Of a stretch of DNA of 59,898 bases, positions 1,312-29,135 are shown piece by piece (the first letter of the stretch is position 1; each line of letters opens with the position of its first letter). Origin of the DNA: an uncultured Chthonomonas sp. (GTDB lineage Bacteria > Armatimonadota > Chthonomonadetes > Chthonomonadales > Chthonomonadaceae); the NCBI GenBank assembly GCA_903859705.1, contig CAIONQ010000176.1, positions 1 through 59,898 of the forward strand. Direction: 5' to 3'. Position numbers and translations under genes: made by a program. The notes under the pieces were generated by a model. The model saw nothing but the letters and a program-made list of their open reading frames with translations. It had not been told where the DNA came from and did not search any database.

Positions 1312-1791
1312 CTACCCCTCTTCGGCTACATCGGCTGGCAGCCCGCTATCCGTGCCGGGTGCAGCATCAATTTGAAGCACCCCTGGCAGCAGAACATGTG
1401 CATAGCCGGGCACCCCAAGCGTGAACTCGGCGGTATACACCCCGGGTGGAAGGTGAGCACCTGCCCCCACAGAAAGATCCAGCGCGGCATCAACCCGCAG
1501 CCGCCCCGCATAGCTCGCATCATAAACGGCTGATGCGGGCAGGCAGGTGAGGCCGCTCACGGGCTGGCCAGCAGCAAACAGAGTGAGCGTGGCCTGCCAA
1601 TCTGCGGGCACGCCCACAACATAACAGGTGGCCGCTACCGCAGCTCGCTCACCACAAAACAGGCGCTGCGGCGGGAAGCTACGAAAAAGCACCACCGGGG
1701 CAGGGCCACCGGTGTAGGGAATGGGCGAACAACCACGCAAAACAAAGGGCGCCGAAATCGGCGCCCCACTCAAACCCGCTATTGTTCTCAT
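1312..1791 (-). CDS. Phage structural protein, beta-rich, unknown function
   Basis: A 159-residue protein predicted to be mostly beta strand, ending in a segment of Ig-like character (LPPGVYTAEFTLGVPGYAHV). Similar wording occurs in the connector protein at 18318-19058 (LAPGMYRALFRF), so both may carry a related small beta-sandwich used in virion proteins. It lies directly upstream of the coiled-coil membrane protein and downstream of the adhesin genes. A terminator-like hairpin lies within codons 9-15. Precise function unknown. Confidence 0.55.
   Translation of the reverse strand: MRTIAGLSGAPISAPFVLRGCSPIPYTGGPAPVVLFRSFPPQRLFCGERAAVAATCYVVGVPADWQATLTLFAAGQPVSGLTCLPASAVYDASYAGRLRVDAALDLSVGAGAHLPPGVYTAEFTLGVPGYAHVLLPGVLQIDAAPGTDSGLPADVAEEG
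1739..1766 (-). terminator. Intrinsic-terminator-like hairpin inside a phage CDS
   Basis: GGGCGCCGA (1747-1755) pairs perfectly with TCGGCGCCC (1758-1766). On the minus strand, the direction of the operon, the stem is followed by TTTGTTTTG. The element lies within the first 20 codons of the 1312-1791 gene, which it also encodes as S-G-A-P-I-S-A-P. The structure is direct sequence evidence; termination activity is inferred. Confidence 0.5.
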
Positions 1792-4872: not shown

Positions 4873-5148
4873 TTCCCCCACAGAAAAGGCGATGGCCGCA
4901 TCCATGTCAACGGAAACGGCCATTGCATACCGGTATCGTTTTTGAAAACCCTTGCAATCCGCAGACAATAATACACAATAGCAATGCACCGAGGGTGCCC
5001 ATCAGAAGCATTTGGTTATGCATAAGGTCCGCGTTCACAACTCAGCCGCACCCACACTCGCTTTGCCTGAACTGCAAGAAATCGGATTGATGCGCAGTTG
5101 CCAGACTCCGGCTTCGATTGGCAACCAACCTTAGCCTCAGATAAGCAA

Positions 5149-5180
5149 ACAGCCCCGGGATTAATCCCAGGGCTGTTTTT
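5149..5180. terminator. Intrinsic terminator between acyltransferase and tail esterase genes
   Basis: ACAGCCC (5149-5155) pairs with GGGCTGT (5170-5176), with inner GGG/CCC pairing around ATTAAT. The plus strand continues TTTTTG and the minus strand TTTGCTTAT, so it could stop transcription in either direction. It separates the acyltransferase gene from the structural operon, which fits the acyltransferase being an independent accessory unit. Confidence 0.65.
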
Positions 5181-5203
5181 GTTACATCTGCTATACGTCG
5201 TAA

Positions 5204-6325
5204 TCATGCAGGCTTTGGCTTAGCAATCCATCTCTTTTCCCACAGTTCGTACATCAGCTTCCCGATGGCAATTAGCACTATCGCTCTTACCAGACTAAAC
5301 GCCGCATATGCTGGCACTGAGTGTACGTAAATCGGTTCAGCCACTTTACCAATCGCCTGTAAAATTGGCTGGTGATACAGGTAGACAGAGTAAGAGCAAG
5401 CTCCTACAGTGGTCAAGAGCTGTAGCCCTTGCGAGTTGAAATACTTCGCAGGTATGGCAGCGCAAGCAACCACAATGCTTGCGAAGAACAAGCCGCACAA
5501 CTGGTCGCGCAGCAGCGGCGGATTCATCTGGTCCCCTGTCATCAGAAGCACTGGGATAAACAGCGCGGCAATAATTGCAACGGCGTACCTAGCCTGCCCC
5601 TGTTTTGGTCGCGCTACCAGATAAGCAGCAGCCATTCCTGCGGCAAACTCAAACACGCGTCCAGGCAGCGCATTGTATCTACTTGCAAAATGTTCAAGGC
5701 TCGGATTGTGCCCGAGCTTGTGTATTACAAACGCCTGATACGCAGCCGAAGCGAACAACGCCAAACCGAGCGTAACTGGGAGGCTTGCCCTCTTCATCAT
5801 GAAGATGAGCAACGGAAACACCAAGTACAACTGAAACTCGAGGGCAAGGCTCCAGAATGGCGGGTTGATAGTCACAACCGTCGACGAGAACAAGTTGTGA
5901 AGCATAAGTAAGTGAAGCGGTATGTCTTTCGCTCCTCCAAATCCCGCCATTACTCCCGAGTGCCTATGAATGTTTGCTCCAATCTTAAGCCCTGCATATA
6001 TCACGAGGCATAAATAGAACGGCGGCAATATTCTCCAGCATCGCCTGCTAAAAAAGCCGCGGATATCCAGCTTCATATCTGGAATATCGTTCTTTCTCGC
6101 CATTGGCAGAAAAAGGCAAAATCCAGAAAGTACCAGAAATAGGCTTACGCCGAGCCATCCCCTGTTGGCCAGGTCAGCGCCAATCCTGAACCCTTCGCCA
6201 TGCTGAGCATCGCACTTCGTAAACAACACCGTATGTTGTCCAATAACCGCCATGCATGCCAGTGCTCGCAAGCAATCAATATAAGCCAGGTGTTTAGCAG
6301 TAGTTCCCGCAGTGGTTTTTTCCAT
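5204..6325 (-). CDS. Acyltransferase 3 family membrane O-acyltransferase (OafA-like)
   Basis: About 373 residues from the ATG at 6325 (MEKTTAGTTAKHLAYIDCLRA); a longer in-frame start at 6379 exists. The N-terminal YIDCLRALACMAVIGQHT and GWLGVSLFLVLSGF blocks are hallmarks of acyltransferase-3 proteins, with the conserved R-A and the F-x-x-SGF element. About ten membrane helices span the protein. These enzymes acetylate sugars of surface polysaccharides. It sits in a phage block next to an esterase-bearing tail protein and has its own terminator, the pattern of a lysogenic-conversion gene: the prophage could O-acetylate the receptor and so block related phages. That biological role is inference. 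Confidence 0.8.
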   Translation of the reverse strand: MEKTTAGTTAKHLAYIDCLRALACMAVIGQHTVLFTKCDAQHGEGFRIGADLANRGWLGVSLFLVLSGFCLFLPMARKNDIPDMKLDIRGFFSRRCWRILPPFYLCLVIYAGLKIGANIHRHSGVMAGFGGAKDIPLHLLMLHNLFSSTVVTINPPFWSLALEFQLYLVFPLLIFMMKRASLPVTLGLALFASAAYQAFVIHKLGHNPSLEHFASRYNALPGRVFEFAAGMAAAYLVARPKQGQARYAVAIIAALFIPVLLMTGDQMNPPLLRDQLCGLFFASIVVACAAIPAKYFNSQGLQLLTTVGACSYSVYLYHQPILQAIGKVAEPIYVHSVPAYAAFSLVRAIVLIAIGKLMYELWEKRWIAKPKPA

Positions 6326-6818
6326 GGCGGTAGTATACCTTCCGGTGCAGCACGAAGTGGGCATCACATTGCCGTGCAAAACGGGTACGCGCTCTGCTCC
6401 ACCAGTTGGCTAACCGTATTGGTGGTAACGGCTCTCGGGGCAACCTTGTTTCTGAATTCCATACCAGCAACATGTGAACAGCAGCACACCCCATCGCCCC
6501 GCTAACCCTTTCCAGGAACAATCCGTCCGCTGTCTCAGTCTTAAGAGGTACTGAAGACATGTGGCAACTCACTGTTTTTCCGCCACAATCGCCTGTGTAT
6601 GCGATATAATATAGGTGGCTTTTCTGTACTGCCTGGCTGCATACAGATGCCTGCGCACCGCACCGCCAGCCTCTAATCCCACAGATGTGGCATGCATCTG
6701 GCTTAGCAACCAGCTCTTCGCGCAACCTCTCAACTCCGCCTTTCACACCATCGCTCGCCCATTTTGCGCGCTATGGATGCGTTAATCGGCCCTGTTTTAC
6801 GAACCAAGGAATCCAGGC
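6326..6818. other. Non-coding stretch between acyltransferase and small membrane genes
   Basis: No convincing gene is seen here. A TATAAT hexamer at 6605-6610 followed by ATATAGG is the only promoter-like element and could serve the plus-strand small-protein row. Open frames across this stretch lack start signals and sensible composition. Confidence 0.4.
6605..6610 (+). promoter_or_regulatory. Candidate -10 element upstream of the DQFGR genes
   Basis: A perfect TATAAT in a local AT-rich patch, about 210 bases upstream of the first small plus-strand gene. No good -35 hexamer is found at the expected spacing, so the call rests on the -10 match and position only. Confidence 0.3.
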
Positions 6819-9056: not shown

Positions 9057-10499
9057 TTAGCCCAGGGCGCGAAACCGAAACGCCTGCCCTTCTGCACGCC
9101 CACTGGCGCTGTGCCGGCTAACCGCTGGCACAGCTGCAGTGGCCAATCCCCAGCCGCCGGCCGCCCCTGCCATTGGGTTTAATCTACGCTTTGCTGCGCC
9201 GCCCAGCATGTAAGATAGGTAGAGTGCCCTGGCCGGCAGGTAGGCCATGCCGATGTCATCCGCACCAGCGCTTTCTACCACTTCTGCAGCCTCCCAGCCC
9301 TCTGCAGAGTTGCCGATATGGCGCAAAGGGGATAGATGAACGGCAGTGCGCAAAGTTCCGCCCGTTGCCGTGAGCCACGACACTGCAAGGCGCTCGTCAT
9401 GCGTATCTGCCTGAAGGCGCTCTGGCGTTTCGCCCGTGCATGTTTGCAGCCTGATACCAAACGAAGGGAATGCGTTGATACACAGATCGGTGAGCGTTGG
9501 CACAGCGGGATACACATCCCGCAAAATCCGCGGTCGCGTGGCAGCCGTTAATGGGCCACTTACAAACAGCGGGCCCTCTGGGCCCGCAAAACTGGTATAC
9601 AACGGTGGCGAACACTCACCCACCCAGTTGCTAACCGTTACGGATACAATGTTTGGCCAATCTACATTCCCAATTTGAGATACACCGGGGTAGCTTGCAG
9701 TGCCAATGGTTTCTGTTCTGCCACAACTATCCGTTAGATGCACCATAGCACCGCCAACCTGGTAAAAGCTGCCATCCTTCACATAGTAGGCCACCACGCC
9801 CGCGCCGGTAAAGTTATCGTAGAAATCCAGGGTGTAGCTGCCACTGAGGGATTGTGCCTGGTACTGAACCGTGCCATCGCCCGGCCGAACAACCGTAATA
9901 GCGGTGGGCCGGGTTACAAAAAAGGCACCAGTGGTGTTCTGACACTCAGAACACACTCCGGTTGGGGCTATATAACCGCACAACCCATTAATCACCGAAG
10001 CATCAGAAATACCGCCGGTTTCATCATTTATCAGGTCTCCCAACCCGGAACTAATTGCCGTGCCAGAAGCCCCGATATCTCGTGGACAGCCGTAGCGCGC
10101 AATGCTCGCCGGGTCACGAACAAAAGGCAGCCAGGCGGCATTTGCGGGGTTATCGGCTGCCGGTGGAGAACCACAGCTAAAGGCAGGGTTGGCAACCCAT
10201 GGGCCAACGGCGAGCGCCGCTGCAAGGTAACTGCCAACAACCGTAACAGAGTAGTTGCCCGCACAATCTGTGGTTAACGGCATAATCTCAATCTCACCAT
10301 CGGAGCAATACTCCCCCACGCTAACGGTGCCAACCCGTGGGTGGGCGCATGGCTTACGCACCGGGCCAGTGCAGCGCTTTAGAAAGAGCGTAAGCGGCAC
10401 ATTCTCATGGGGAATAGTAAGATACCTGCCCCTGCGGTACTGGCCGGAGAGGGTAAAGCTTGCCGCCGCCCCGCAATACCCCGCACTGATAGCTGGCAT
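9057..10499 (-). CDS. Phage tail protein, proximal part of a beta-propeller adhesin
   Basis: About 480 residues from the ATG at 10499, which has GGAGG six bases upstream (an in-frame upstream start at 10562 lacks this). The N-terminal 230 residues are cysteine-bearing beta-rich segments (YCGAAASFTLSGQYRRGRY, CSECQN); the C-terminal 130 residues have the strand pattern of propeller blades (RLAVSWLTATGGTLRTAVH). The protein appears to continue in the same frame past its TAA into the 8541-9050 segment. A GCGGGCCC/GGGCCCGC hairpin lies inside the gene at 9569-9587. Role: virion adhesin, inferred. Confidence 0.6.
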   Translation of the reverse strand: MPAISAGYCGAAASFTLSGQYRRGRYLTIPHENVPLTLFLKRCTGPVRKPCAHPRVGTVSVGEYCSDGEIEIMPLTTDCAGNYSVTVVGSYLAAALAVGPWVANPAFSCGSPPAADNPANAAWLPFVRDPASIARYGCPRDIGASGTAISSGLGDLINDETGGISDASVINGLCGYIAPTGVCSECQNTTGAFFVTRPTAITVVRPGDGTVQYQAQSLSGSYTLDFYDNFTGAGVVAYYVKDGSFYQVGGAMVHLTDSCGRTETIGTASYPGVSQIGNVDWPNIVSVTVSNWVGECSPPLYTSFAGPEGPLFVSGPLTAATRPRILRDVYPAVPTLTDLCINAFPSFGIRLQTCTGETPERLQADTHDERLAVSWLTATGGTLRTAVHLSPLRHIGNSAEGWEAAEVVESAGADDIGMAYLPARALYLSYMLGGAAKRRLNPMAGAAGGWGLATAAVPAVSRHSASGRAEGQAFRFRALG

Positions 10500-10626
10500 C
10501 CAAAACCTCCGATCGTGATATGCCCTGAAAAGGAAGATTGCATAAACTCTGGCTATCGCCAAATACCATTTATTTCAGTTTAATATCCGTTATGTGCATT
10601 TGTAGGGGCAACGCTGGGTGCACTTT

Positions 10627-17242: not shown

Positions 17243-17863
17243 CTACTCTATGCTTGCTTGAACTATCAGATGCAGAGCCGGGATAAGCTCTGCTCCGCCA
17301 AAACCTCTAAACGGAGTATCCCGATACCCCCTGTACACATGGCTCTCTAACAGGGCATCCGTTTGTGGGGGCACGCTGAGAATACTGGTGCCAAGCTGAA
17401 CAGTAAGGCCGCCAGTTGCCGTTTCCGGGTTCCAGTAGTTGCACACCCCCAGCGTTACCCAATCGCTTAACCGGGATAGCAGCCGCTCTCTGGCCTCTGC
17501 CTGCCTGCGTACGGATACACTTGCGAGGGCATCCGGATGCACGTAGATGGCGAGATGCGTGTAGAAGGTGTATCGGAAACCAGAACAACCATTTACACCC
17601 AGGGTAAGAGCCGATTCAAAATCCAGGGGGCTGGTTTCGTCGCCGCCACGGATGCGAATTCGGATGCCGCCTGTGCCGATGTCCCACAGCGTTTCGCTAT
17701 CGCCAATCTCCACCATCTCCGGCGTTACCTCGCCAACCGGAGTGCGCCTATCACGCATGAGCGCAACATTTAGCAGATCCAGGCGGGATATCAGCAGCCT
17801 GCGGTACGCCTCCAACCGGGCCTCATCTAAACCAGGTTTGCTCGGGTCGTATCCTGTGCTCAT
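17243..17863 (-). CDS. Head-tail connector / tail terminator-like protein
   Basis: A 206-residue protein. The ATG at 17863 overlaps the upstream stop in an ATGA; the open frame extends 6 codons further. An N-terminal helix (LEAYRRLLISRLDLLNVALM) precedes a beta domain with Y-T-F-Y-T-H-L-A-I-Y-V and a second helix (ARERLLSRLSDWVTLGV). This order resembles small tail-terminator proteins, but the family is not certain. It is translationally coupled to its upstream neighbour. Confidence 0.55.
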   Translation of the reverse strand: MSTGYDPSKPGLDEARLEAYRRLLISRLDLLNVALMRDRRTPVGEVTPEMVEIGDSETLWDIGTGGIRIRIRGGDETSPLDFESALTLGVNGCSGFRYTFYTHLAIYVHPDALASVSVRRQAEARERLLSRLSDWVTLGVCNYWNPETATGGLTVQLGTSILSVPPQTDALLESHVYRGYRDTPFRGFGGAELIPALHLIVQASIE

Positions 17864-18294
17864 CTCGCCTCCTCTTCCCAAATTGCATCCTCAGCCCATG
17901 GCTGCTGCGCATCGGTGGCCGGGCTTTCGCGCCGAATACCTACACAGCGCACGCCCATCTTCTGGCCTTTAAAGCTCTGCGGCAGCGCGTTTAGCAGCAC
18001 ATATACATCGGCATCCAGCTCCACCCTGTCGTTTTCAAGCACGCCACTGCTGCCACCAAATGTGAATATAAGCGGTGCCGGGGAGAGCGCATTGCAATCT
18101 CCCTCCACCTTCAAATGGCCAATATCGTTGGCATTGGGGGGCTCTATCAACGCAAAAACGGTGCGCTTTAGCGCACCGTTAGCAAACCGGGCAGGCGAAG
18201 GATGCAAGGTTACAAGGGTTCCGCAACGGCGCAGTGTTTCTTCAAACCGCGCCTGAAGGGAAAGCGCCTCTTCCACCGTAGATTCCTGACGCAT
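17860..18294 (-). CDS. Head-tail joining protein, unknown family
   Basis: A 144-residue protein starting MRQESTVEEALSL at 18294; ten further in-frame codons lie upstream. An N-terminal helix is followed by beta strands (RTVFALIEPPNANDIGHLKV). ATGA overlap with the downstream gene. A terminator-like hairpin lies inside the gene at 18154-18180. Connector role is inferred from its place between capsid and tail genes. Confidence 0.55.
   Translation of the reverse strand: MRQESTVEEALSLQARFEETLRRCGTLVTLHPSPARFANGALKRTVFALIEPPNANDIGHLKVEGDCNALSPAPLIFTFGGSSGVLENDRVELDADVYVLLNALPQSFKGQKMGVRCVGIRRESPATDAQQPWAEDAIWEEEAR
18154..18180 (-). terminator. Intrinsic-terminator-like hairpin inside a connector gene
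   Basis: AACGGTGCGC (18157-18166) and GCGCACCGTT (18171-18180) form a perfect 10-bp stem with a 4-nt loop; on the minus strand the stem runs into TTTTT then GCG. It is fully coding (N-G-A-L-K-R-T-V-F). Activity not shown by sequence alone. Confidence 0.45.
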
Positions 18295-18317
18295 GGCATC
18301 CTCCTTTCTCAACACAA

Positions 18318-19058
18318 TTACCAATCCCGCATGTTTCCGCGGCGCTTGCTACCCGGCAAATCTGGAACAAAAATGGGCTCGGGTGCCCGCACGGCCGGCA
18401 TAACAGGCGACAGGATTCTGAGCCGGGCGGCACGCTCCGATATGGCGCGCCAGGCCTCCTCTTCGCCGGCGCCAAACGCCCCAATACGAATGGCACTTGC
18501 CAACCGCGCCCTATCGGTGGCAAGTGTTTCCAGAGCATCCGCCGCTGCCAGCCTGGGGATGCCGCCCGCGTAGTGTAAGTAGAATTTGAGCTCATCGTCG
18601 CTCCAAATCGGGCGCTCCACATCGGTATCTGCGGCAAACAGCCGTGTTTGAAACAGAGGGCTGCGCTCCAACTGGGATGCAACGTAGGTTGCCGCGCCAG
18701 TTACCAGCGGCAGCACATCAATGGATATCTCCCGCTCCAGTGTCTGAGCTTCGGCGGGATCTGAAGAGAACACACACGAAAACCGAAACAATGCCCTGTA
18801 CATACCCGGTGCAAGGGAAGTGGTATCGAGCACCTGCCACAGCCTTAGTCGTGGCTGTGGGCCAGCCTGGAACCCCGATATTCCCACCTCGGTAAGGCCG
18901 GGAGTTGCAGAGCCATCCGGGCCGAAGAGGCTAAACACACCACCAGATTGCGCCACGGCGGTTATGCCCTGCGGGGAATTCACAGCGGCAAAAATGGGCT
19001 GAATGCTTCCCTGGCGCAGCCGTATTACATCCTCCTTGCCACTCTGTAAATCGCTCAC
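18318..19058 (-). CDS. Phage connector/structural protein with beta-sandwich N-terminus
   Basis: About 246 residues. The GTG at 19058 is chosen because AAAGGAG lies seven bases upstream and it makes a GTGA overlap with the preceding stop. Residues 10-120 are an Ig-like beta domain (LAPGMYRALFRFSCVFSSD). The C-terminal half is helical with KFYLHYAGGIPRLAAADALE, a segment of the kind found in head-tail connector or gp6-like adaptor proteins. Function inferred from this and the genomic position after the major capsid gene. Confidence 0.6.
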   Translation of the reverse strand: MSDLQSGKEDVIRLRQGSIQPIFAAVNSPQGITAVAQSGGVFSLFGPDGSATPGLTEVGISGFQAGPQPRLRLWQVLDTTSLAPGMYRALFRFSCVFSSDPAEAQTLEREISIDVLPLVTGAATYVASQLERSPLFQTRLFAADTDVERPIWSDDELKFYLHYAGGIPRLAAADALETLATDRARLASAIRIGAFGAGEEEAWRAISERAARLRILSPVMPAVRAPEPIFVPDLPGSKRRGNMRDW

Positions 19059-19570: not shown

Positions 19571-20623
19571 TTACAGGGTGCAGCCGGAGATGAGATATCC
19601 GCCGGTGGCGTAACCGCTGGCGTTATCTCCATTGGTGCTGCCATCTGTGGATACAAAGCGCCAGTCGCGCGTGGTGCGCACCTCTATGCGCTCCGCATCT
19701 ATCCACTCTTCTCGCCAGCGCTTTACCAGAAATCCCCGCGTGTTCAGGCTATCATCCGGCGCCTCGAACGTAAGCCCGAAGGCAACCATCTTAAGCGAGG
19801 GCGCAGCCATGGGGGAGTAATAAACAAGCGCGGCATCCTGGCCCTGATCATCCGCCCACACAAAACCGGTGGTTACGGCTGCGCCCTCCGGGCTGGTTGC
19901 CCGCTGTGTGCGGGCCTCCACTACTGAAAGCCCGCCGATAACCGGAGCAAGGCCAGAGGATGTTAGCCCTTCTCGGCTTACATACTTGATCTTATCCAGG
20001 TACTCCCAGTTCTGGCTAAGAGTAACGGCGGCATTGTAGTTGAGCAGAATGTGAGTTGCGCTGCGCACCAGGCTGCCAATAACAGCCTTGCGCGCCTTCG
20101 GTATGTCTACAGAGATGGGGAAGCTGGTGTAGCTGCCAGCGGTTTGTGCGTTTTGCGCCCAGGATGTTGTGCCGGTGGAGAGCTGTGCCTTGTTGGATGC
20201 AGCATAGTTACCACGCTTCATTGCCTTGCTGGCAACGGCCACTTCGTTATCCAGCGTTATCATCTCGGTAAGTGCAATGGTTGCATCGATGCCGGGTTGC
20301 AGCGGTGCATCGGCAAGGTGGGTTTCTGAATCGGTAAGCGCGTAGTTGCGCGCCAGCTGTTCGCAATAGTACGGGTTGGTGGATACATCAAACAGGATCT
20401 CTGTGGAGCGGCTGCCCGGCCGGCGCATCGAGCCCGGTCGACCCTGCTTATCCACACCAGAGGAGCGAAGAAACGCATCTTTGTTGTACAGAAAGTACCG
20501 ATCGGAGCGCTTTTCAACCGGAACCACGGGGAACACGCGACTGGCCACATAATCCTCGTTTGTGTAGGCCACCGAAAGGTTGGTAAGCGCCACATCTACG
20601 TGCACATTGGCTAAATCTGGCAT
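19571..20623 (-). CDS. Major capsid protein (HK97-fold type, Mu-like group)
   Basis: A 350-residue protein. The N-terminus (VALTNLSVAYTNEDYVASRV then FPVVPVEKRSDRYFLYNK) matches the opening of the capsid group found with DUF935-type portals. The middle has the long helix and P-domain pattern (DIPKARKAVIGSLVRSATHI) and the C-terminus a basic strand segment (VKRWREEWIDAERIEVRTTR). Length, central place in the head module, and the upstream protease/scaffold and decoration genes support the call. A hairpin (TTTCCGGC/GCCGGAAA) follows the gene at 19512-19531. Confidence 0.75.
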   Translation of the reverse strand: MPDLANVHVDVALTNLSVAYTNEDYVASRVFPVVPVEKRSDRYFLYNKDAFLRSSGVDKQGRPGSMRRPGSRSTEILFDVSTNPYYCEQLARNYALTDSETHLADAPLQPGIDATIALTEMITLDNEVAVASKAMKRGNYAASNKAQLSTGTTSWAQNAQTAGSYTSFPISVDIPKARKAVIGSLVRSATHILLNYNAAVTLSQNWEYLDKIKYVSREGLTSSGLAPVIGGLSVVEARTQRATSPEGAAVTTGFVWADDQGQDAALVYYSPMAAPSLKMVAFGLTFEAPDDSLNTRGFLVKRWREEWIDAERIEVRTTRDWRFVSTDGSTNGDNASGYATGGYLISGCTL

Positions 20624-20742: not shown

Positions 20743-21183
20743 CTATGCAGCAAATATCATAAACGGACCCAGGCGCACTGCCACCGGTGCGCCTGCCGTT
20801 GCCGGTATCGGCCCCTCATCCACACACATGCCGATGATGTTGTACAGGTTCCAGTTGCCTGCCGTGCCCGGGCTTGCGGGGATGGCCAGCGCCTGCGATT
20901 TCACCTGCCCTGTGGTGGCGGATGCTACCAGATAATCGCCAGGATTGATTACGGCGCTGCCATCGCTCTCCAGCACAGCCACTCCCGCAATCTGTACTGC
21001 AACGCCGCCCCCCGGGCTAACACGCTCGGCGGTGGCACCAACAGCTGTGGCCTCTGCAGGCGATGCCGGCAGCTTTACATTGCCCCGGGTTGTGCCATCC
21101 ATAACCACCACCCGGCGCGCCACAATCCCACTGCCTGCAGCGGCCGGGAATGTATCCTCCAACAGCGAAATACCCCTGCTCAT
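20743..21183 (-). CDS. Head decoration / DUF2190-like protein
   Basis: A 146-residue beta-rich protein (GSGIVARRVVVMDGTTRGNV, INPGDYLVASATTGQV) lacking charged catalytic motifs. Such proteins located between the prohead protease and the capsid gene normally decorate or stabilise the capsid. The ATG overlaps the protease-gene stop as ATGA. Family assignment is by size, composition and position. Confidence 0.65.
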   Translation of the reverse strand: MSRGISLLEDTFPAAAGSGIVARRVVVMDGTTRGNVKLPASPAEATAVGATAERVSPGGGVAVQIAGVAVLESDGSAVINPGDYLVASATTGQVKSQALAIPASPGTAGNWNLYNIIGMCVDEGPIPATAGAPVAVRLGPFMIFAA

Positions 21184-22250
21184 GCCTGCACCGCCTTTCC
21201 ATCTTCCACACCACTATAGGCTGGCGATGCGGCCGCATGTGCCGCTGCCAGATCGGTGTTTTCGCGGCATACGCGCGAAAATGCCACATCAAACCGCTCC
21301 CCGCTCTCTTTCATGCGCTCCCGGGTAAGAGCCACAAGCCGCTGCCCGGGATCTTCGGCACCCGGGGTTACCTGCCTTGTTGCTGAATTGCGGAACTGAG
21401 CAAGGGGTGGCCGCTGCTTCAGGGTTTGCAGGATTTGAGCAAAGGCTGCCGGATGCTCTTCGGCGGCATGTCGCCACTGATCCGCCTCGGCGGCAGTCAT
21501 CCTTCCATCCTTCACCAACTCCTGTATTTCGGCAAGGTGCCTTGCAGTATCTGCCCTGCGCTGTTCCTCGGCAAACTGGGCGCGCAGCTCTACAATCACG
21601 CGCTCCTGCTCTTGCAGCGCAGCACTCATCTGCCTGAACTCAGCACTGCTGCGGAAATCTGCCGATGCCACCTCGCCCAGCTGAGTTTGCCCACCTTCCC
21701 GCTCTTTCACCTCAAACCCCTCCCCGCGCAAAAACGCAGCAAGTTTGGCCGCAAGGCTCATTCGTGTCTCCTCTCTCTGCCGGGTGCCACCGGCATTTCC
21801 ATCACGCTCCATCGCCATCATCACCGCGTCGGCTATGCGGGGCTCCAGCACCATCGCCGCCCCCAGCGGTAGCTTTGTTGCCCTATCCCATTCGCTGCTG
21901 ATGCGTATGGGCGCGCCCTCTGTTATCTGGTGCAACCAGGCCGGTATGCGGTACTCAGCCATCACATCTCGCCCGGCCCGCCACAGCCGTGTTACCTGGC
22001 CCAGTTTTCCATCCAGAACGCTGGAGATATGCTCGATATTTATGGGGCCGCCCCGAAACTGCTTTACCGCCGCATCTGCTTCGGCCTCGGTAAGGGCAAA
22101 CTGCTTATCCGGGTAATCACCCACTTCAAAAAACTTGCCCTGCCGAATAACCGCCCCATCGGCTTCGGTTTGCCCTTCTGTAGCCACCGGACCCCCGACA
22201 ATAAAAAGGGCGGAGCGTGCCGCTCCGCCTCTCTCAAGCAATGCCGTCAT
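21180..22250 (-). CDS. Prohead protease fused to scaffold
   Basis: About 356 residues from the ATG at 22250 (AGGAG upstream). The N-terminal 150 residues form a Mu gpI-like capsid-maturation protease: LFIVGGPVATEG, an INIEHISS segment with candidate catalytic His and Ser, and LPLGAAMVLEPRIADAVMM. Residues 180-280 are a heptad-rich helical scaffold (QMSAALQEQERVIVELRAQF), and the C-terminus is a capsid-binding type helix. In this family the scaffold is cleaved off during assembly. A perfect terminator-like hairpin overlaps codons 8-16. Confidence 0.7.
   Translation of the reverse strand: MTALLERGGAARSALFIVGGPVATEGQTEADGAVIRQGKFFEVGDYPDKQFALTEAEADAAVKQFRGGPINIEHISSVLDGKLGQVTRLWRAGRDVMAEYRIPAWLHQITEGAPIRISSEWDRATKLPLGAAMVLEPRIADAVMMAMERDGNAGGTRQREETRMSLAAKLAAFLRGEGFEVKEREGGQTQLGEVASADFRSSAEFRQMSAALQEQERVIVELRAQFAEEQRRADTARHLAEIQELVKDGRMTAAEADQWRHAAEEHPAAFAQILQTLKQRPPLAQFRNSATRQVTPGAEDPGQRLVALTRERMKESGERFDVAFSRVCRENTDLAAAHAAASPAYSGVEDGKAVQA
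22201..22229 (-). terminator. Perfect terminator-like hairpin at the 5' end of the protease gene
   Basis: GGCGGAGCG (22209-22217) and CGCTCCGCC (22221-22229) form a 9-bp perfect stem with a 3-nt loop. On the minus strand the stem is followed by CTTTTTAT. The portal gene ends at 22267 and the protease ATG is at 22250, so the hairpin lies at the portal/protease boundary but inside the coding sequence. Confidence 0.6.
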
Positions 22251-22266: not shown

Positions 22267-23721
22267 TTATGTCCCCACAGCCCGCATGGCATCTCGGGCC
22301 ATAATCGCCTTTGTTAGCATGGCAACTGCGGTGTCTGCATCTGCCTTGCTCATGGCGGCTATCTTGCCGGATAGCCTGCCATCGGCAAGCTGCTGTTCTG
22401 CCTCGGAATGCGCGCTTTGTTCGGCATCCAGCATCTTCTCTTCTTCCGGATCCAGCGGAGGCAGCCCTAACTGCTGCCGAATTACCTTGCTGCGGGATGG
22501 CAGGTTGCCGCCCTGCATTAGTATCTGCAGCATCTGCGCGATCTGCAGCTGATCTCCTTCTGGCCTCTTTCGCAGCCGCAGTTGTGGGCACAGAGCCAGT
22601 GCTTTTTCGCCGTAGTTGTACAGCACAAATCTGCGGATTATCTGCGCGGTAACCACGGCTTCAATGTCTCGGGAGAGCGCGTCATACACCATCATCCCGC
22701 TATCCTGATGTACTTTTCCCAGCGCAAGGCTGTTGGTTCCAGAGCTGGTGGTAAGCACATTGCTATTGATGTTGAGTGCAATCTGCTGTGTATCCCACAT
22801 GGCTGCCCGCTCCATAGCCACAAACACACTGCGTGGAGCATTTATCATTTCGTACTTCACATTATCAGGAAGCACCGGGCTGGCCCCCTGCCGAATGGTA
22901 TTCGCAATCTCTTCGGCGGCATGCATCTCGGTAACCGACATCGCAGGGTAGGTCATCACCATAACCGGCGCACCCCAGCGCTCCAGGGCCATAGCCCAGA
23001 ACTTAACGCAGGCATCCAGGCGCCACCAGTGCTTATAACAGGCGCGCCAATCTCCCTGCCCGGCCGGTGCATTGGCACTCTGCCCATCAACGTAGTACAC
23101 GCAGCGTTCTACCGGGATATCGAAGTCGTAACCACCGGCAGGTGTGTAGCTGGTGAATTTGCGAACGGCCAGCGTGCTGGTATCGATATCAAACCCTACT
23201 TGTTTGCACGGCTTTATCCAGATACCTCGCAGGCCATGTTTACCAGCAAGCTGCCCACCCTCCTGATACTGCCAGCCAATTTCCCCCACGCGATAGCCGG
23301 TCCAGGCGCCAAGCATCAGATCAAACAGGATGGTGCGGAGATCGGTTGTAAGATCCGTTTCTGGATCGCGGATATTCTGAAGTGCATATTGTACGGCGGT
23401 TGCCAGCTCTGCCGCCGATGCATGATCTGGTGCACCCGGTTCCGAAATTGCGGGCTCTACGTCCCAGCCATCTTGCAGTACCGCATATCTCTTAAGGTTG
23501 AACGGTGCCCTGCAGGCGGCCATGTTCAGCATATCTTCTACAAACTGATAGCCCTTCTGCGCAAGTGTGGTATCCAGCGAAAAACCTGGGTACCGAAAGG
23601 AGGGCGCGAAAACGCCATCATACGCCCCCATGCGTGGGGCCCTGCCGGGCACCGGGCGGGCACCAGCATGTTGTGTGCTCCCGGAGCGCCGCAACTCTTT
23701 ACCAACAGGTATGCGCACCAT
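22267..23721 (-). CDS. Phage portal protein (DUF935 / Mu gp29-like)
   Basis: A 484-residue protein. Conserved-looking blocks include QFVEDMLNMAACRAPFNLKR, TILFDLMLGAWTGYRVGEIGW, KFWAMALERWGAPVMVMTYP and IIRRFVLYNYGEKALALCPQ, the order seen in Mu-type portals. The C-terminal tail (QQLGLPPLDPEEEKMLDAEQ) is acidic. Portal forms the dodecameric gate for DNA packaging. It lies 53 bp after terminase and just before the protease gene, the canonical order. Confidence 0.75.
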   Translation of the reverse strand: MVRIPVGKELRRSGSTQHAGARPVPGRAPRMGAYDGVFAPSFRYPGFSLDTTLAQKGYQFVEDMLNMAACRAPFNLKRYAVLQDGWDVEPAISEPGAPDHASAAELATAVQYALQNIRDPETDLTTDLRTILFDLMLGAWTGYRVGEIGWQYQEGGQLAGKHGLRGIWIKPCKQVGFDIDTSTLAVRKFTSYTPAGGYDFDIPVERCVYYVDGQSANAPAGQGDWRACYKHWWRLDACVKFWAMALERWGAPVMVMTYPAMSVTEMHAAEEIANTIRQGASPVLPDNVKYEMINAPRSVFVAMERAAMWDTQQIALNINSNVLTTSSGTNSLALGKVHQDSGMMVYDALSRDIEAVVTAQIIRRFVLYNYGEKALALCPQLRLRKRPEGDQLQIAQMLQILMQGGNLPSRSKVIRQQLGLPPLDPEEEKMLDAEQSAHSEAEQQLADGRLSGKIAAMSKADADTAVAMLTKAIMARDAMRAVGT

Positions 23722-23774: not shown

Positions 23775-25364
23775 TCACCATGATCTTGATGCCTGGCTGC
23801 TTTTCAAGAAGTGGCTATCGCCCCGCCTGCTCTGCACGGCAAGGCTAAGGCTCATCTCCTCTCCATTGCCGGAAAATGCAAGCGCCAGGGCATCGGCAAA
23901 ATCTGGCGAGTCTATGCCGCGCTTTTTAAGATCCTGCTTGCTCTCTAATTGAACTTTGCCGGTTTCAGTGTAAAAGTACAAAGGCAGCGCTATCTGCTGT
24001 ATCAACTCGGAAACCAGCGGAAGTGAAATCATCTCTTCCTGTGGGAACAGCGTAAACTCGGTGCCTGCGGCTATCGCCGCTGCAAAGTTGTTTGCCTTCT
24101 CGAAGCGTGTGCGCAGCATCCACCACATTTCTGAACGCAGGTTTCTAAACCGCTCCCTGCTGCTTTTGCCATCGGGCCAAATTCTATCGCGTGGTGCATC
24201 GCCAACATTAACTGCCACCGGCCTCAAAGCTATTCTGTTATCCGCGGTAAGGGCATTGAAGTTGGCGCGCACCGCGGCCCCAACCCCAATGCTATCGTAG
24301 TAAAGGGTTACAATTCCCAGTTCCTGGCAAACCTCAATAACATGGTGGGTGCTCTGCAGCAGATCCATCTCGCCCCAGTGCCGAACTGCCACCACAACAG
24401 GGCCATGGCGGCACACCAGCACATTTTTGCAACGGCCTGTATCGGCTACATCCCACCCACCAATCGGGAACCCACCGGGCTTTAAGGGCAGCCCAACCGC
24501 TGCATTAACCCACATGGCAGGAATACAAACATTCTCGATAGAGGCGCTGTAATCAATATCCAGCTCCTGGGCAATAATCACGGGGTCGGCAATGCGCTGC
24601 TTTTCCCGCTCGTACCAGGCATCATTCTTGCGGGGATCATCGCGCCAGTGAAAGGTGAACACGGGTACCGAGCCATTAAAACGGCGCGTGTGAAACGGGT
24701 TGCCCATGCCATTGGGTGTGGAAACATCGATGCGCACCCGGGTTGTCTGGCTGAGTGCGGCCTCTACCGATTTTGGGTTAGGCAAGTAAGCGGCCTCATC
24801 CACAAAGTAGCGCGATTTGCGCCCGCCTCGCCCAATTTCAGAGCCCCCCTCGCCGGTTATGGTGCTGCCATTTTCCGGGTTTAGCAGCGTGCAGTACTTA
24901 TCGTGCTTGCCAGGCACAAACCCTTTGGGCAGCATCCAGCCAGGCAAGTGCCTGTATAGAAACCGGCACTTTTCAAAAATACAATCCGGATTATCCCGGT
25001 GATCCACCAGATCCAGCTTTCGGCTTCCGAACCCGGTACTATCGGCCAGCTTGAACAGCCAGCAGTGCAGCGCATATGCCGTGCAAAGCCAGGTAAAGCC
25101 CACATCTCTGCTCTTTTCTGCAAGCCCGCTCTCCTGCCTGGCATCGCGCTCTGTAAGCCACCGCAGAAACTCTTCTTGTCTTGGAAACAGGTCAAATGGC
25201 CGAATAGGGTCGGGCTCGCGCGGGTCATAGGTCCAGCACCAGCTGTTTACCCAGTGAACTACATCCCCGCGGCACTTGTTTACCTCTGGCTGGCACCCGT
25301 CTGAGTTTTGATTATAAAAAGCGGCCAACTGCTGCCGCCGCAAAACGGAGGACTCAAAGTCCAC
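23775..25364 (-). CDS. Terminase large subunit
   Basis: About 529 residues. The GTG at 25364 is preferred, with GGGAGG five bases upstream; a TTG six codons earlier has no such site. ATPase: Walker A variant EKSRDVGFTW (about residue 82) and Walker B RYFVDEAAYL with the catalytic Glu. Nuclease: first acidic residue in GGWDVAD, second in LYYDSIGVGA, third in DSPDFADALAL. All key residues are present, so packaging activity may be intact. No small terminase gene is visible upstream, and this is the first gene of the structural operon. Confidence 0.85.
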   Translation of the reverse strand: MDFESSVLRRQQLAAFYNQNSDGCQPEVNKCRGDVVHWVNSWCWTYDPREPDPIRPFDLFPRQEEFLRWLTERDARQESGLAEKSRDVGFTWLCTAYALHCWLFKLADSTGFGSRKLDLVDHRDNPDCIFEKCRFLYRHLPGWMLPKGFVPGKHDKYCTLLNPENGSTITGEGGSEIGRGGRKSRYFVDEAAYLPNPKSVEAALSQTTRVRIDVSTPNGMGNPFHTRRFNGSVPVFTFHWRDDPRKNDAWYEREKQRIADPVIIAQELDIDYSASIENVCIPAMWVNAAVGLPLKPGGFPIGGWDVADTGRCKNVLVCRHGPVVVAVRHWGEMDLLQSTHHVIEVCQELGIVTLYYDSIGVGAAVRANFNALTADNRIALRPVAVNVGDAPRDRIWPDGKSSRERFRNLRSEMWWMLRTRFEKANNFAAAIAAGTEFTLFPQEEMISLPLVSELIQQIALPLYFYTETGKVQLESKQDLKKRGIDSPDFADALALAFSGNGEEMSLSLAVQSRRGDSHFLKSSQASRSW

Positions 25365-25565
25365 AGCCGCCTCCCATGCCAATATGAAGTTGTGTGAATT
25401 AAATACTAAACATATGTCTACATATATTAACTACATGCAGAAACGTGATTTTGAAAGATTGGCAAAAAAATCAGTTAAAAAAGGCGCAAAAGAACAACAG
25501 TACAGGGCCATTTTGCGCATGTGACAGGCAAATTTTGGGCCATAAGCCGATGGTTTCAATCCAGC
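25365..25565. other. AT-rich gap at the right end of the phage block
   Basis: This short AT-rich stretch (CATATGTCTACATATATTAA near 25411) separates terminase from host-type genes and should contain the late-operon promoter; no clean -35/-10 pair could be settled. A 36-codon plus-strand frame (25414-25524, MSTYINYMQKRDFERLAKK...) is basic and possible but lacks a ribosome-binding site. No att-like repeat could be paired inside the window. Confidence 0.35.
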
Positions 25566-26363
25566 TCAGCTTTTGGATTCTGTGTCTATCAGTACCGCCT
25601 TAAAAGCGATATAGAGTTTGTGTTTTCGCTGGTTTCTGCTATCGATCAACACCGTAACATATTTGCAACCACTTATTTTGGCCGCGTAATCCGCATATAC
25701 GGCAACGGTACCCTCAACACTATCACCGCTTGTAGTGCTGTACCGATACCTGAGTTTGTATGGGAGTGTGAGCTGGTTTGGATTAAGTGGCTCGAGATTC
25801 ACTATCTCAGCTGGCTCTACCTTGCCATATTGAAGCAAGCGCTGCTGGCCCCGAATTTCTGTTTCTACAAGCATAATGAGTGCGACAATAAATACCGAGC
25901 AAAAGCAGACAATAGCTGCCCAGTAGCCAACTTTCTGTTGAATAGACCCAGCATCCGGCACGCCGCCAATGCGCGATACATGAGGCTTGTTGGGCAGGTA
26001 TGTGAGAGCTATCGCGAAGCGTTCTGGTTGTGCGTTGTACTGATCCGGTGTCACCTCACTGTCGCCAGTGAAGTGTGTATTTGCCCCGGGCGGCAGGTAA
26101 CGATACTGGATGTGATACAGATTGGCACCACGATCCGCGATGATATATTTGCCAGTAACGGTTCCAAGAATAGTTACACCATGCGCGCGCAGCTGATTTA
26201 AAGTGCTTATATCCTGGTAGGCGTTTGCTGCTGCGATGCCACACACAATTACTATCAGCGCACGCAATACAATGCGCAGATTGCGTATAGGTACTGACCA
26301 CCGGGTTCGCCTCGGTGTAGCACCGGTGAGTTCGGGTTCAATATTCCAGCCACCAATTTGCAT
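25566..26363 (-). CDS. DUF3592-like membrane protein
   Basis: A 265-residue protein with two membrane helices (about 29-47, IVLRALIVIVCGIAAANAY, and 149-170, WAAIVCFCSVFIVALIMLV). Two extracytoplasmic beta segments follow the DUF3592 pattern: a G-x-V-T-G-K strand, then Y-R-Y then an F-A-I-A-L-T-Y-L-P close, repeated as KLRYRYSTTSGDSVEGTV after helix 2. Function of the family is unknown. It is the first host-like gene beyond the phage block and is divergent from the glycosidase-like gene. Confidence 0.6.
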   Translation of the reverse strand: MQIGGWNIEPELTGATPRRTRWSVPIRNLRIVLRALIVIVCGIAAANAYQDISTLNQLRAHGVTILGTVTGKYIIADRGANLYHIQYRYLPPGANTHFTGDSEVTPDQYNAQPERFAIALTYLPNKPHVSRIGGVPDAGSIQQKVGYWAAIVCFCSVFIVALIMLVETEIRGQQRLLQYGKVEPAEIVNLEPLNPNQLTLPYKLRYRYSTTSGDSVEGTVAVYADYAAKISGCKYVTVLIDSRNQRKHKLYIAFKAVLIDTESKS

Positions 26364-26409
26364 TGCGTTGAGTTCGCTTTACCGCCGCAGTATTCCTCCA
26401 GGACATACA

Positions 26410-27666
26410 ATGCAGGAATCTACAATGATGTCTGGAATGACCTTGTATCACATGTGGAGGTTGTTCGCCTTGCCAGCAAACTTAAAACGGTTCTGTGGAG
26501 CGGCGGTTGCGGTTTCGGTGGGGTTGATGTGCACTGCTTCTGCAGCACCACGCAGTAGCGACACTTCTCGTCCCTACGCTTCCTACAGCCATGGGCCATC
26601 TGCCTCTGCCAACTACTTTCCAATTGCTGTTTGGCTACAATCTCCCCAGAACGCAGCGCGCTACAAAGCAGCCGGCTTCAACCTGTATATTGGCCTCTGG
26701 CAGGGACCAACCGAAGCTCAACTCACCGAATTGAAGGCGGCAGGCATGCCCGTAATCTGCGAGCAGAACGCAGTTGGGCTTAAACACACGTCGGACCCCA
26801 CCATAGTAGGCTGGATGCATCAAGACGAACCGGATAACGCCCAGCCAATGAAAGCGGCCGATGGAAGCCAGACATATGGCCCCTGTGTACCGCCGCAAAA
26901 GATTGTAAAAGAATATTTAGAGATGAACAGGGCAGACCCTACTCGCCCGATATTGCTGAACCTGGGCCAGGGTGTTGCGGATGACACCTGGATAGGGCGA
27001 GGCAATGGCGCAAAACCTGAGGATTACGAAACCTATGTGAAGGGTGGAGACATAACTTCGTTTGATATCTACCCGTTCGCTTCAAATCTTCATGGCAGCG
27101 GCGAAAAAAATGTTGGATTTGTAGCCAACGGGGTTGATCGGCTCAAACGCTGGGCCGGGCCAACAAGGGTTGTGTGGAACTGCATTGAGTGCAGCCAGAT
27201 AGATGGAGCCACAAAGCCAACACCAGCTCAAACACGTGCTGAAGTTTGGATGTCGCTAATTCACGGCAGTCGTGGTTTGATCTACTTTGTACACCAGTTC
27301 AAACCGGCATTCAATGAACACGCATTGTTGGATGACCCCGCCATGCTGACTGAAGTTACCCGCACAAATAGACAGATCCAGGCACTGGCAACTATTTTGA
27401 ACCAGCCCGATGTGGCGCCATGTACTATTGTGCAGGCGGGCACGGGCAAGATAGACATCGTATGTAAGAAGAGTGGCGGCGTTGTGTGGCTGCTAAGTGT
27501 GAACCGAACTGGCACAGCCTGCGATGCGTTGTTGCCAATACAGGCAAATAGCGGTGCCGTTGCCGAGGCACAGGATGAAAACAGAAAGCTCCAGCTAGGA
27601 AATGGGCAGATTAAGGATCATTTTGAGCCCTGGCAGGTGCATATTTATCGCTTTGCCCGGCAGTAA
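26410..27666 (+). CDS. Exported TIM-barrel glycosidase-like protein
   Basis: About 418 residues from the ATG at 26410 (AGGA six bases upstream); the open frame extends upstream to 26236 but would overlap the divergent gene. A signal peptide is followed by FPIAVWLQSPQNAARYKAAG, the first strand-helix of a (beta/alpha)8 barrel. Candidate catalytic acids lie after strand 4 (GWMHQDEPDN) and in VVWNCIECSQ, spaced as in clan A glycoside hydrolases. The last 80 residues form a beta domain. Substrate unknown. A convergent terminator follows. Confidence 0.65.
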   Translation: MQESTMMSGMTLYHMWRLFALPANLKRFCGAAVAVSVGLMCTASAAPRSSDTSRPYASYSHGPSASANYFPIAVWLQSPQNAARYKAAGFNLYIGLWQGPTEAQLTELKAAGMPVICEQNAVGLKHTSDPTIVGWMHQDEPDNAQPMKAADGSQTYGPCVPPQKIVKEYLEMNRADPTRPILLNLGQGVADDTWIGRGNGAKPEDYETYVKGGDITSFDIYPFASNLHGSGEKNVGFVANGVDRLKRWAGPTRVVWNCIECSQIDGATKPTPAQTRAEVWMSLIHGSRGLIYFVHQFKPAFNEHALLDDPAMLTEVTRTNRQIQALATILNQPDVAPCTIVQAGTGKIDIVCKKSGGVVWLLSVNRTGTACDALLPIQANSGAVAEAQDENRKLQLGNGQIKDHFEPWQVHIYRFARQ

Positions 27667-27719
27667 AAAGGCGATAGCATTGCGGCTTCCTGAGCTTTAC
27701 CGCCACAGATTGCATTAAA

Positions 27720-27751
27720 AGATCCCCACCTCTACAATGAAGTGGGGATCT
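27720..27751. terminator. Bidirectional intrinsic terminator
   Basis: AGATCCCCAC (27720-27729) pairs perfectly with GTGGGGATCT (27742-27751), preceded by AAAA and followed by CTTGATTT. It lies between two convergent genes. Confidence 0.8.
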
Positions 27752-27779
27752 CTTGATTTGTGCCACGTATGGAGCCAGG

Positions 27780-29135
27780 TTAGCCTGCATCCACCCCTAA
27801 TTTTGCAAGGGCCATTACCAGCTCGTCCTCATTTCCAGAGCCAACAACCACTGACTTAACAACCCCATCTGTGCCAATAACAAACAGCGTTGGGATGGCG
27901 TTTACACCAAACTTGGTAGCCGCAATGCTCTTCTTCGGATCCCGCTCACCGGGATCAAACGCAAAGGTGAAAGAGTATTTGCTGCCAGCATTTTTCTTAA
28001 TCCAGGCATCAAACGGGCTCTTTTCATCAAACACATTAAGGCTAAGAACCACCACGTTTTGTTTCTTAATCTTCTGGTAAATCTGCTCCAGCCGGGGCAT
28101 CGCCTGCTGACACGGGCCACACCAGGTAGCCCATAGATCAAGCAGCACTATCTTGCCCTTGAAATCACTCAGGTGAATGGGCTTTCCCGCCGGATCAAAC
28201 GCAGTGAAATCTGGAGCCTTAACCCCTGCAGCAATCAGCTTACGTTCTTCCACTTCACGCGGAGCCTGGGCCTGGGCAACTGCTCCCGGAGCGGTGCTTG
28301 GGATAAGCGTTAACTGCGCGCCACTTGCTATGGTGGAGGCTTCCCACCACAGGCCCGCAATCTGAAATGGCTGATCCAGCATTATTTGCTCGCTCTGCAT
28401 CATCTTCATGCCATCAGCCCCGGTGGTAGATGCGCCACGAAAGGTACCATCTCCATCCAGATCGATAAACAACTGCAGTGGGCGGCGAGTGCGATCCGTT
28501 CGGCGAGCATTGATAAACAGACCATCGCTATTGTTCTCGGCAAGCAAAATGGGATAGGTTTTGCCGCCGATGGTAACTTTGCCGGAGCGAGCAGTAAACT
28601 TGGTATATCCCACACGGGCAGTGCCATGCTGCTTGTATATCATCAGCGTATAACTGCCCGCATCTTCCTCTTTAACCGGCCCACCCCAGGATGCATTAAC
28701 AGTTATAACACTTTGATAGTTGGCAACGCCATTGCTATCAATGGTTTTATCCCAGCCACCGGCGCCATCATCAGTTAAATCGCCATTCTGATTTCTGTCT
28801 ACATAGATCTTACCTGGGCCATTTTCTGGCTCATCCACGGCGAAGTAAGTAAAACTCTTAGGACCATTGCCCACCACAAATGCCCCGTACTTTGGTTTAC
28901 CCTTATAGGCTGGCTCTTTGTGAATTGCTGCAGGCTTAACCTCAACCAGCTGAACAGAAGCCGGCATGTAGCCCATAAAGTTCTTCTTCAGAGCATCCAT
29001 ATCCAGCGCATTGGCGGATAGAGAAAGGTCTACAGTTACGGGTTGCGGTGCCTGAGCCAACCCTGCCACTGGTAGGCCCAGCATTAGGGAGGCAGCAGCC
29101 ATACGGGGGATTATTGGGTGGCGTTTATGGTTCAA
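27780..29135 (-). CDS. Exported TlpA/ResA-type thioredoxin-fold protein
   Basis: A 451-residue protein with a signal peptide (MAAASLMLGLPVAGLAQA). The C-terminal 145 residues are a TlpA-like domain with the redox motif WATWCGPC and the cis-proline strand FGVNAIPTLFVI. The N-terminal 280 residues hold a beta-rich domain with acidic loops of EF-hand type (DRNQNGDLTDD, DLDGDGTF), probably calcium sites. Likely a periplasmic thiol-disulfide reductase. The enlarged N-terminus, also seen in Planctomycete/Armatimonadota relatives, has no known role. Confidence 0.8.
   Translation of the reverse strand: MNHKRHPIIPRMAAASLMLGLPVAGLAQAPQPVTVDLSLSANALDMDALKKNFMGYMPASVQLVEVKPAAIHKEPAYKGKPKYGAFVVGNGPKSFTYFAVDEPENGPGKIYVDRNQNGDLTDDGAGGWDKTIDSNGVANYQSVITVNASWGGPVKEEDAGSYTLMIYKQHGTARVGYTKFTARSGKVTIGGKTYPILLAENNSDGLFINARRTDRTRRPLQLFIDLDGDGTFRGASTTGADGMKMMQSEQIMLDQPFQIAGLWWEASTIASGAQLTLIPSTAPGAVAQAQAPREVEERKLIAAGVKAPDFTAFDPAGKPIHLSDFKGKIVLLDLWATWCGPCQQAMPRLEQIYQKIKKQNVVVLSLNVFDEKSPFDAWIKKNAGSKYSFTFAFDPGERDPKKSIAATKFGVNAIPTLFVIGTDGVVKSVVVGSGNEDELVMALAKLGVDAG

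Follow-up and report, generated by a model that had tools for sequence, protein, structure and literature searches.

The portal-protease junction

The window analysed here, a stretch of 59,898 nucleotides from contig CAIONQ010000176.1 of an uncultured Chthonomonas sp., harbours a cluster of phage structural genes on its minus strand. In the direction of transcription, these code for a large terminase (23775..25382; family match), a portal protein (22267..23721; PF06074, E 1.4e-47), a head maturation protease/scaffold protein resembling that of phage Mu gene I (21180..22250; PHROG 2976, E 1.1e-5, with a PF10123 match below the family cut-off), a scaffold- or decoration-like protein (20743..21183; family matches) and the major capsid protein (19571..20623; PHROG 1005, E 1.5e-42). 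The region upstream of the large terminase gene (25382-29135) contains an ORF without family match and then a thioredoxin-like host gene, and neither early phage genes nor a small terminase were recognized in it. An acyltransferase gene (5204-6379, minus strand; PF01757, PHROG O-acetyltransferase / O-antigen acetylase) is located inside the phage structural region and is a possible lysogenic-conversion gene.

A perfect hairpin, GGCGGAGCG-GCA-CGCTCCGCC (22209..22229, minus strand), starts 37 nt past the portal stop codon. The stem reads from 22229 to 22209 on the minus strand and is composed of nine perfect pairs, eight of them G-C, closed by the 3-nt loop GCA. The T-rich tail CTTTTTAT (22201..22208) directly follows on the 3' side, and the nine nucleotides downstream of the stem, CTTTTTATT, include seven T, on the strand of both the portal and the protease genes. 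The predicted hairpin energy is -17.3 kcal/mol, and only 7 of 200 shuffled sequences beat the predicted fold of the 86-nt junction (z -2.3). The T-tail score of 2.67 falls among the values obtained for intergenic hairpins of the host. Thus, the element combines the structural features of intrinsic terminators, i.e. a GC-rich stem of about 5-14 bp, a short loop and an adjoining U-rich tract. The original prediction of a perfect, GC-rich, terminator-like stem of 9 bp with a T tail at 22201-22229, on the transcribed strand and right after the portal gene, is confirmed in the sequence. A search of the 6.2-Mb assembly allowing up to two mismatches revealed a single other palindrome, with one mismatch, and we therefore rejected a mobile or repeated palindrome. 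The junction hairpin matched no Rfam entry, and no known RNA family or tRNA was recognized.

The overlap with the protease gene depends on where the latter starts. Beginning with ATG 22250, the frame stays open over 356 aa until the stop codon at 21180; with this start the stem begins 21 nt past the A of the ATG and corresponds exactly to codons 8-14, and the tail to codons 15-17. An alternative GTG start is found 3' of the hairpin (22185..22187, minus strand). The Shine-Dalgarno energy is -7.4 kcal/mol for ATG 22250, with AGGAG about 10 nt upstream, and -9.2 kcal/mol for GTG 22187, with GGGGGT about 3-4 nt upstream; the 5% level of random positions is -7.7. We favour ATG 22250 and consider GTG 22187, which would remove the overlap, a credible alternative of distinctly lower probability.

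The conserved core of the protease begins only near residue 35-40 (KFFEVGDYPDK). It is preceded by 38 residues in the window and by 24 in the closest relative described below (the sister prophage), which have RSA-F and a few others in common. The hairpin is thus located in a lineage-specific, non-conserved N-terminal stretch, and the original statement that the frame stays family-like across it does not hold. Because of this lack of conservation and of the possible GTG 22187 start, placement of the hairpin inside the gene is likely in the window rather than proven.

T-tailed stems across the cluster and in the host

Three other T-tailed stems are present on the minus strand of the phage cluster. 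A 10-bp stem (18157..18180) is inside ORF 17860-18324, at codon 49, and an 8-bp stem (9569..9587) is inside ORF 9057-10562, at codon 326. The last one, also of 8 bp (1747..1766), is found 46 nt past the stop of ORF 1813-2721 and covers codons 9-15 of ORF 1312-1791. For a cluster-wide test, we collected perfect stems that had 8 bp or more, including at least six G-C pairs, and called T-tailed those with at least five T in the next 9 nt. The set of late genes consisted of 20 ORFs (20.6 kb) chosen by hand from the ORF lists, several of which have no family match. In these ORFs, T tails follow four of the seven stems on the sense strand and none of the seven on the antisense strand. No synonymous-codon permutation of the 20 ORFs out of 4000 reached four T-tailed sense stems (mean 0.079, largest 3). 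In 300 runs under a first-order Markov model for the 24-kb region, such stems averaged 0.05 and never exceeded one.

This cluster-wide permutation test does not select the junction site, unlike resampling at the start of the protease gene. In the latter, synonymous resampling of codons 2-41 generated a stem of 9 bp or more, seven or more of its pairs being G-C, in 75 of 60000 trials, with a T tail in 40, but these figures are post hoc since the site was picked for being striking. The junction hairpin is a non-random feature. The argument that coding sequence rarely tolerates a perfect terminator by chance is nevertheless weakened by the loose constraint on the N-terminal stretch that harbours the hairpin. 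Taken together, the four sense-strand hairpins of the cluster are a more interesting lead than the junction hairpin alone.

We also counted T-tailed stems in host sequences, with long ORFs defined as those of at least 180 aa. In a 464-kb sample of the same genome, the long ORFs (346 kb) contain no sense and one antisense T-tailed stem, and the other 118 kb contain 14. In the genome of the sister prophage, one sense and no antisense T-tailed stem were found in the long ORFs (139 kb), and none in the other 49 kb. The host thus seems to place hairpin-plus-T signals between its genes and to keep the genes themselves free of them, and the prophage cluster appears to depart from that pattern; under the 180-aa rule, however, the sense coding hairpins of the window are reduced from four to two (22209 and 9569), since those at 18157 and 1747 are in ORFs of 154 and 159 aa.

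The junction in related prophages

Only one close relative was found, a prophage contig of the same genus (G001:C346, locus L052, CAIXIX010000346.1, uncultured Chthonomonas sp.). Its capsid, portal and protease are 85, 67 and 53% identical, respectively, to those of the window. A search of the genome and viral contigs with a single protease query retrieved no close relatives, and two- or three-sequence alignments of the capsid, portal or protease retrieved this sister contig, the viral contigs L068 and L070 and otherwise weak matches only. Among phage records the protease was unmatched, and all portal and capsid matches were below 60% identity. A hairpin pattern search of the viral contigs returned no hits.

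The stem sequence of the window is absent from the sister prophage. The latter nevertheless harbours a different stem at the same junction, a perfect one of 10 bp, ATCGCCCCGG-CCTCCGA-CCGGGGCGAT, followed by CTTGTTATC, a weak T tail with a score of 1.65. This stem is unrelated to that of the window and is in a non-homologous position. It starts 26 nt past the portal stop and is located 30-56 nt into the protease ORF. As there is no in-frame ATG, GTG or TTG between it and the conserved protease core, the sister stem is coding. Among 60000 synonymous resamplings of the sister sequence, 13 had a T-tailed stem of 10 bp or more, in this case at a place specified beforehand by the window finding. The structure, strand, position and excess over chance of the window hairpin are established, and so is the presence of a different hairpin at the sister junction.

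Beyond this pair, we surveyed 31 distinct loci with a detectable protease, including the window and the sister, and these two were the only positives. In all 29 distant loci (at most 39% identical), no T-tailed stem of at least 8 bp was found between -250 and +30 of the protease core. Similarly, there is no such stem at the corresponding junctions of L068 (capsid 64% identical) and L070 (protease 43% identical). At this place (3441-5303), L068 codes for what looks by eye like a different type of protease, S49/ClpP-like, with a similar scaffold-like C-terminus either in fusion or directly downstream, which would be a module swap.

The stem is therefore not kept by compensatory changes in relatives as a conserved structured RNA would be, contrary to the original proposal that it might be conserved through compensatory synonymous changes. 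That proposal also took as evidence against a role a stem lost while the protein is conserved, together with the lack of an RNA 3' end at the site; the first half is what we observed for the stem sequence, whereas the placement is kept in the sister prophage. From these two genomes, hairpin placement appears to persist while the stem sequence turns over fast.

We extended the counts to structural modules of the same order, using 11 of 13 modules as the other two have no portal match. With the window and the sister included, seven sense and one antisense T-tailed cases were found among 22 stems in 82.6 kb. Five modules (G017, G006, G020, G028b and G008) have no sense T-tailed stems, and G027b has none in sense and one in antisense. 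In addition, the T-tailed case of G010 follows what we take, by eye from the translations, to be an hslV-like host gene, and one G007 case is in a presumably DinB-like ORF. We therefore partly discount the order-level excess. Given these contexts and the modules with zero sense stems, the window alone shows an excess, to which the sister adds a single case. In L128 (G010) and L124 (G007), portal-like genes adjoin genes that look host-like by eye (hslV-like, glycosyltransferase-like, DinB-like), with no complete head operon around them, and these loci are possibly broken or domesticated prophages.

Putative attenuation and alternative roles

We propose, with a probability of roughly 0.6, that the hairpin is a putative intrinsic (Rho-independent) terminator acting as an attenuator between the portal gene and the following genes. 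It would probably dampen expression of the downstream genes, with partial polarity. RNA polymerase reading the head operon past the portal stop would make the stem and the U run about 60 nt later, and a fraction of the polymerases would halt at the U run. As the AGGAG ribosome-binding site of ATG 22250 is upstream of the hairpin, every message for the full-length protease would have to cross the latter. This geometry would be that of an attenuator rather than of the end of a transcription unit. With the ATG 22250 start, termination would be partial, or lifted by a ribosome that closely trails the polymerase, or suppressed by an antitermination factor of the phage. We infer transcription termination, its efficiency and the means of its relief from the sequence. 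Several points argue against a terminator. It is hard to see what the phage would gain from a stop in front of the protease and capsid genes, unless the stop is lifted at the right time. Furthermore, the stem sequence is not conserved, the 29 distant loci, L068 and L070 have no T-tailed stem there, the sister tail is weak, the shared placement is known from two genomes, and two of the four window hairpins drop out as coding under the 180-aa rule.

A possible but unlikely alternative is a conventional terminator between two genes. With a protease start at GTG 22187, the hairpin would be in a gap of about 80 nt past the portal gene, with no overlap, and the termination step would be the same as for an attenuator. 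The more favourable Shine-Dalgarno energy of that start, the short protease N-termini of most relatives and the lack of conservation upstream of the core are all consistent with this arrangement. Nevertheless, as a start codon GTG is weaker than ATG, only a short spacer separates it from the Shine-Dalgarno motif, the sister stem is within the protease ORF, with no start codon between it and the core, and a few residues upstream of V22 (RSA-F) align with the sister protein.

It is doubtful that the hairpin is a functionless by-product, i.e. a palindrome perfected by template switching during replication in an unconstrained N-terminal stretch. Poor conservation of this stretch, the lack of T-tailed stems in the distant loci and the unrelated sequence of the sister stem are what such an origin would leave behind. 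However, it does not account for the T-tailed stems found in 20.6 kb (four sense, where 0.079 are expected, and none antisense), for a second, different stem at the same junction of the sister, or for the near absence of T-tailed sense stems from long host ORFs.

We regard as rather improbable that the hairpin acts on translation, as a stem just beyond the footprint of the initiating ribosome that slows or tunes translation of the protease/scaffold protein, the T tail being incidental. The distance of 21 nt from the A of ATG 22250, the unpaired Shine-Dalgarno motif in the predicted fold and the location of the sister stem early in its ORF are in line with such a role, but it leaves unexplained the association of T tails with the sense strand and the hairpins far inside genes (9569 and 18157). 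We favour a terminator over a translation-level structure because the sense-strand T tail (4/7 versus 0/7) is needed by a terminator only.

Phage heads contain a 12-mer portal and hundreds of capsid subunits. We set aside the original proposal that the hairpin adjusts the portal-to-capsid transcript ratio through partial termination, which we consider very improbable. The hairpin does sit between the portal and the protease and capsid genes, but termination there would leave capsid transcripts scarcer than portal transcripts, when heads usually call for the reverse, unless a downstream promoter serves the capsid gene. There is no excess of sigma-70-type promoters in the region, and the 29 distant loci that must also make heads have no such hairpin. 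The promoter scan covered sigma-70-like sites between 14000 and 33000 and detected 11 for 12.3 expected. A promoter-like TTGAAG-16 nt-GATAAT sequence is found at 22664-22637 (minus strand), inside the portal gene and about 390 nt before the protease start; it is not above shuffle expectation.

The putative attenuator is familiar in kind. In translation-relieved attenuators, coupling between transcription and translation lets a ribosome prevent formation of the terminator stem. Similarly, if the protease starts at ATG 22250, a ribosome-binding site directly precedes the terminator-like hairpin of the window, so that a ribosome could block the stem; unlike in those systems, we identified no leader peptide or alternative anti-terminator pairing in the window, where relief by ribosomes is putative.

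In E. coli, RNA 3' ends internal to ORFs or in 5'-UTRs are documented, some of them with intrinsic-terminator character (Adams et al. 2021, PMC7815308). As in the cases described there, the window element has a GC-rich stem, a short loop and a U-rich tail near or inside coding sequence, and premature termination would serve as control. It differs from them in being predicted from sequence, in its location at a phage portal-protease junction and in its wholly different sequence in the one close relative. As for phage Mu, one of the promoters of its late transcription units is activated by C and located at gene I (PMC4461284). The likeness would be control of transcription in front of a gene I-type head maturation protease, in a phage with a Mu-type portal family. 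In contrast with the window junction, which shows no excess of sigma-70-type promoters, Mu uses a promoter in the 196-nt gap before I (NC_000929). There is no T-tailed stem of at least 7 pairs in this G-I gap, and we thus rejected Mu as a model for the junction hairpin. Our literature search found no published report of a hairpin at a portal-protease junction, which is no proof of absence in print.

If the hairpin does terminate transcription, the same DNA would serve as a stop signal and as the beginning of a phage structural gene, the placement of the signal being kept while its sequence changes. It would also suggest that late gene expression in this phage lineage depends on antitermination or on tight transcription-translation coupling. 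Elements of this kind would be discarded by mistake if relatives were compared by stem sequence. More broadly, and with little confidence, we envisage that the structural cluster of this prophage lineage could be sown with terminators in or at the edges of coding sequences (four sense and none antisense in 24 kb), whose sequences turn over and whose placement is kept. The late operon would then be readable only by antiterminated or ribosome-followed polymerases, which would keep the prophage silent.

Capsid relatives are present in 13 of 291 genomes of the phylum, including G000, G001, G006, G007, G017, G020, G027, G028 and G030. With the exception of the sister (85%), most capsids from the same family or order show 45-51% identity, a pattern suggesting that phages of this type have long been associated with one bacterial order.
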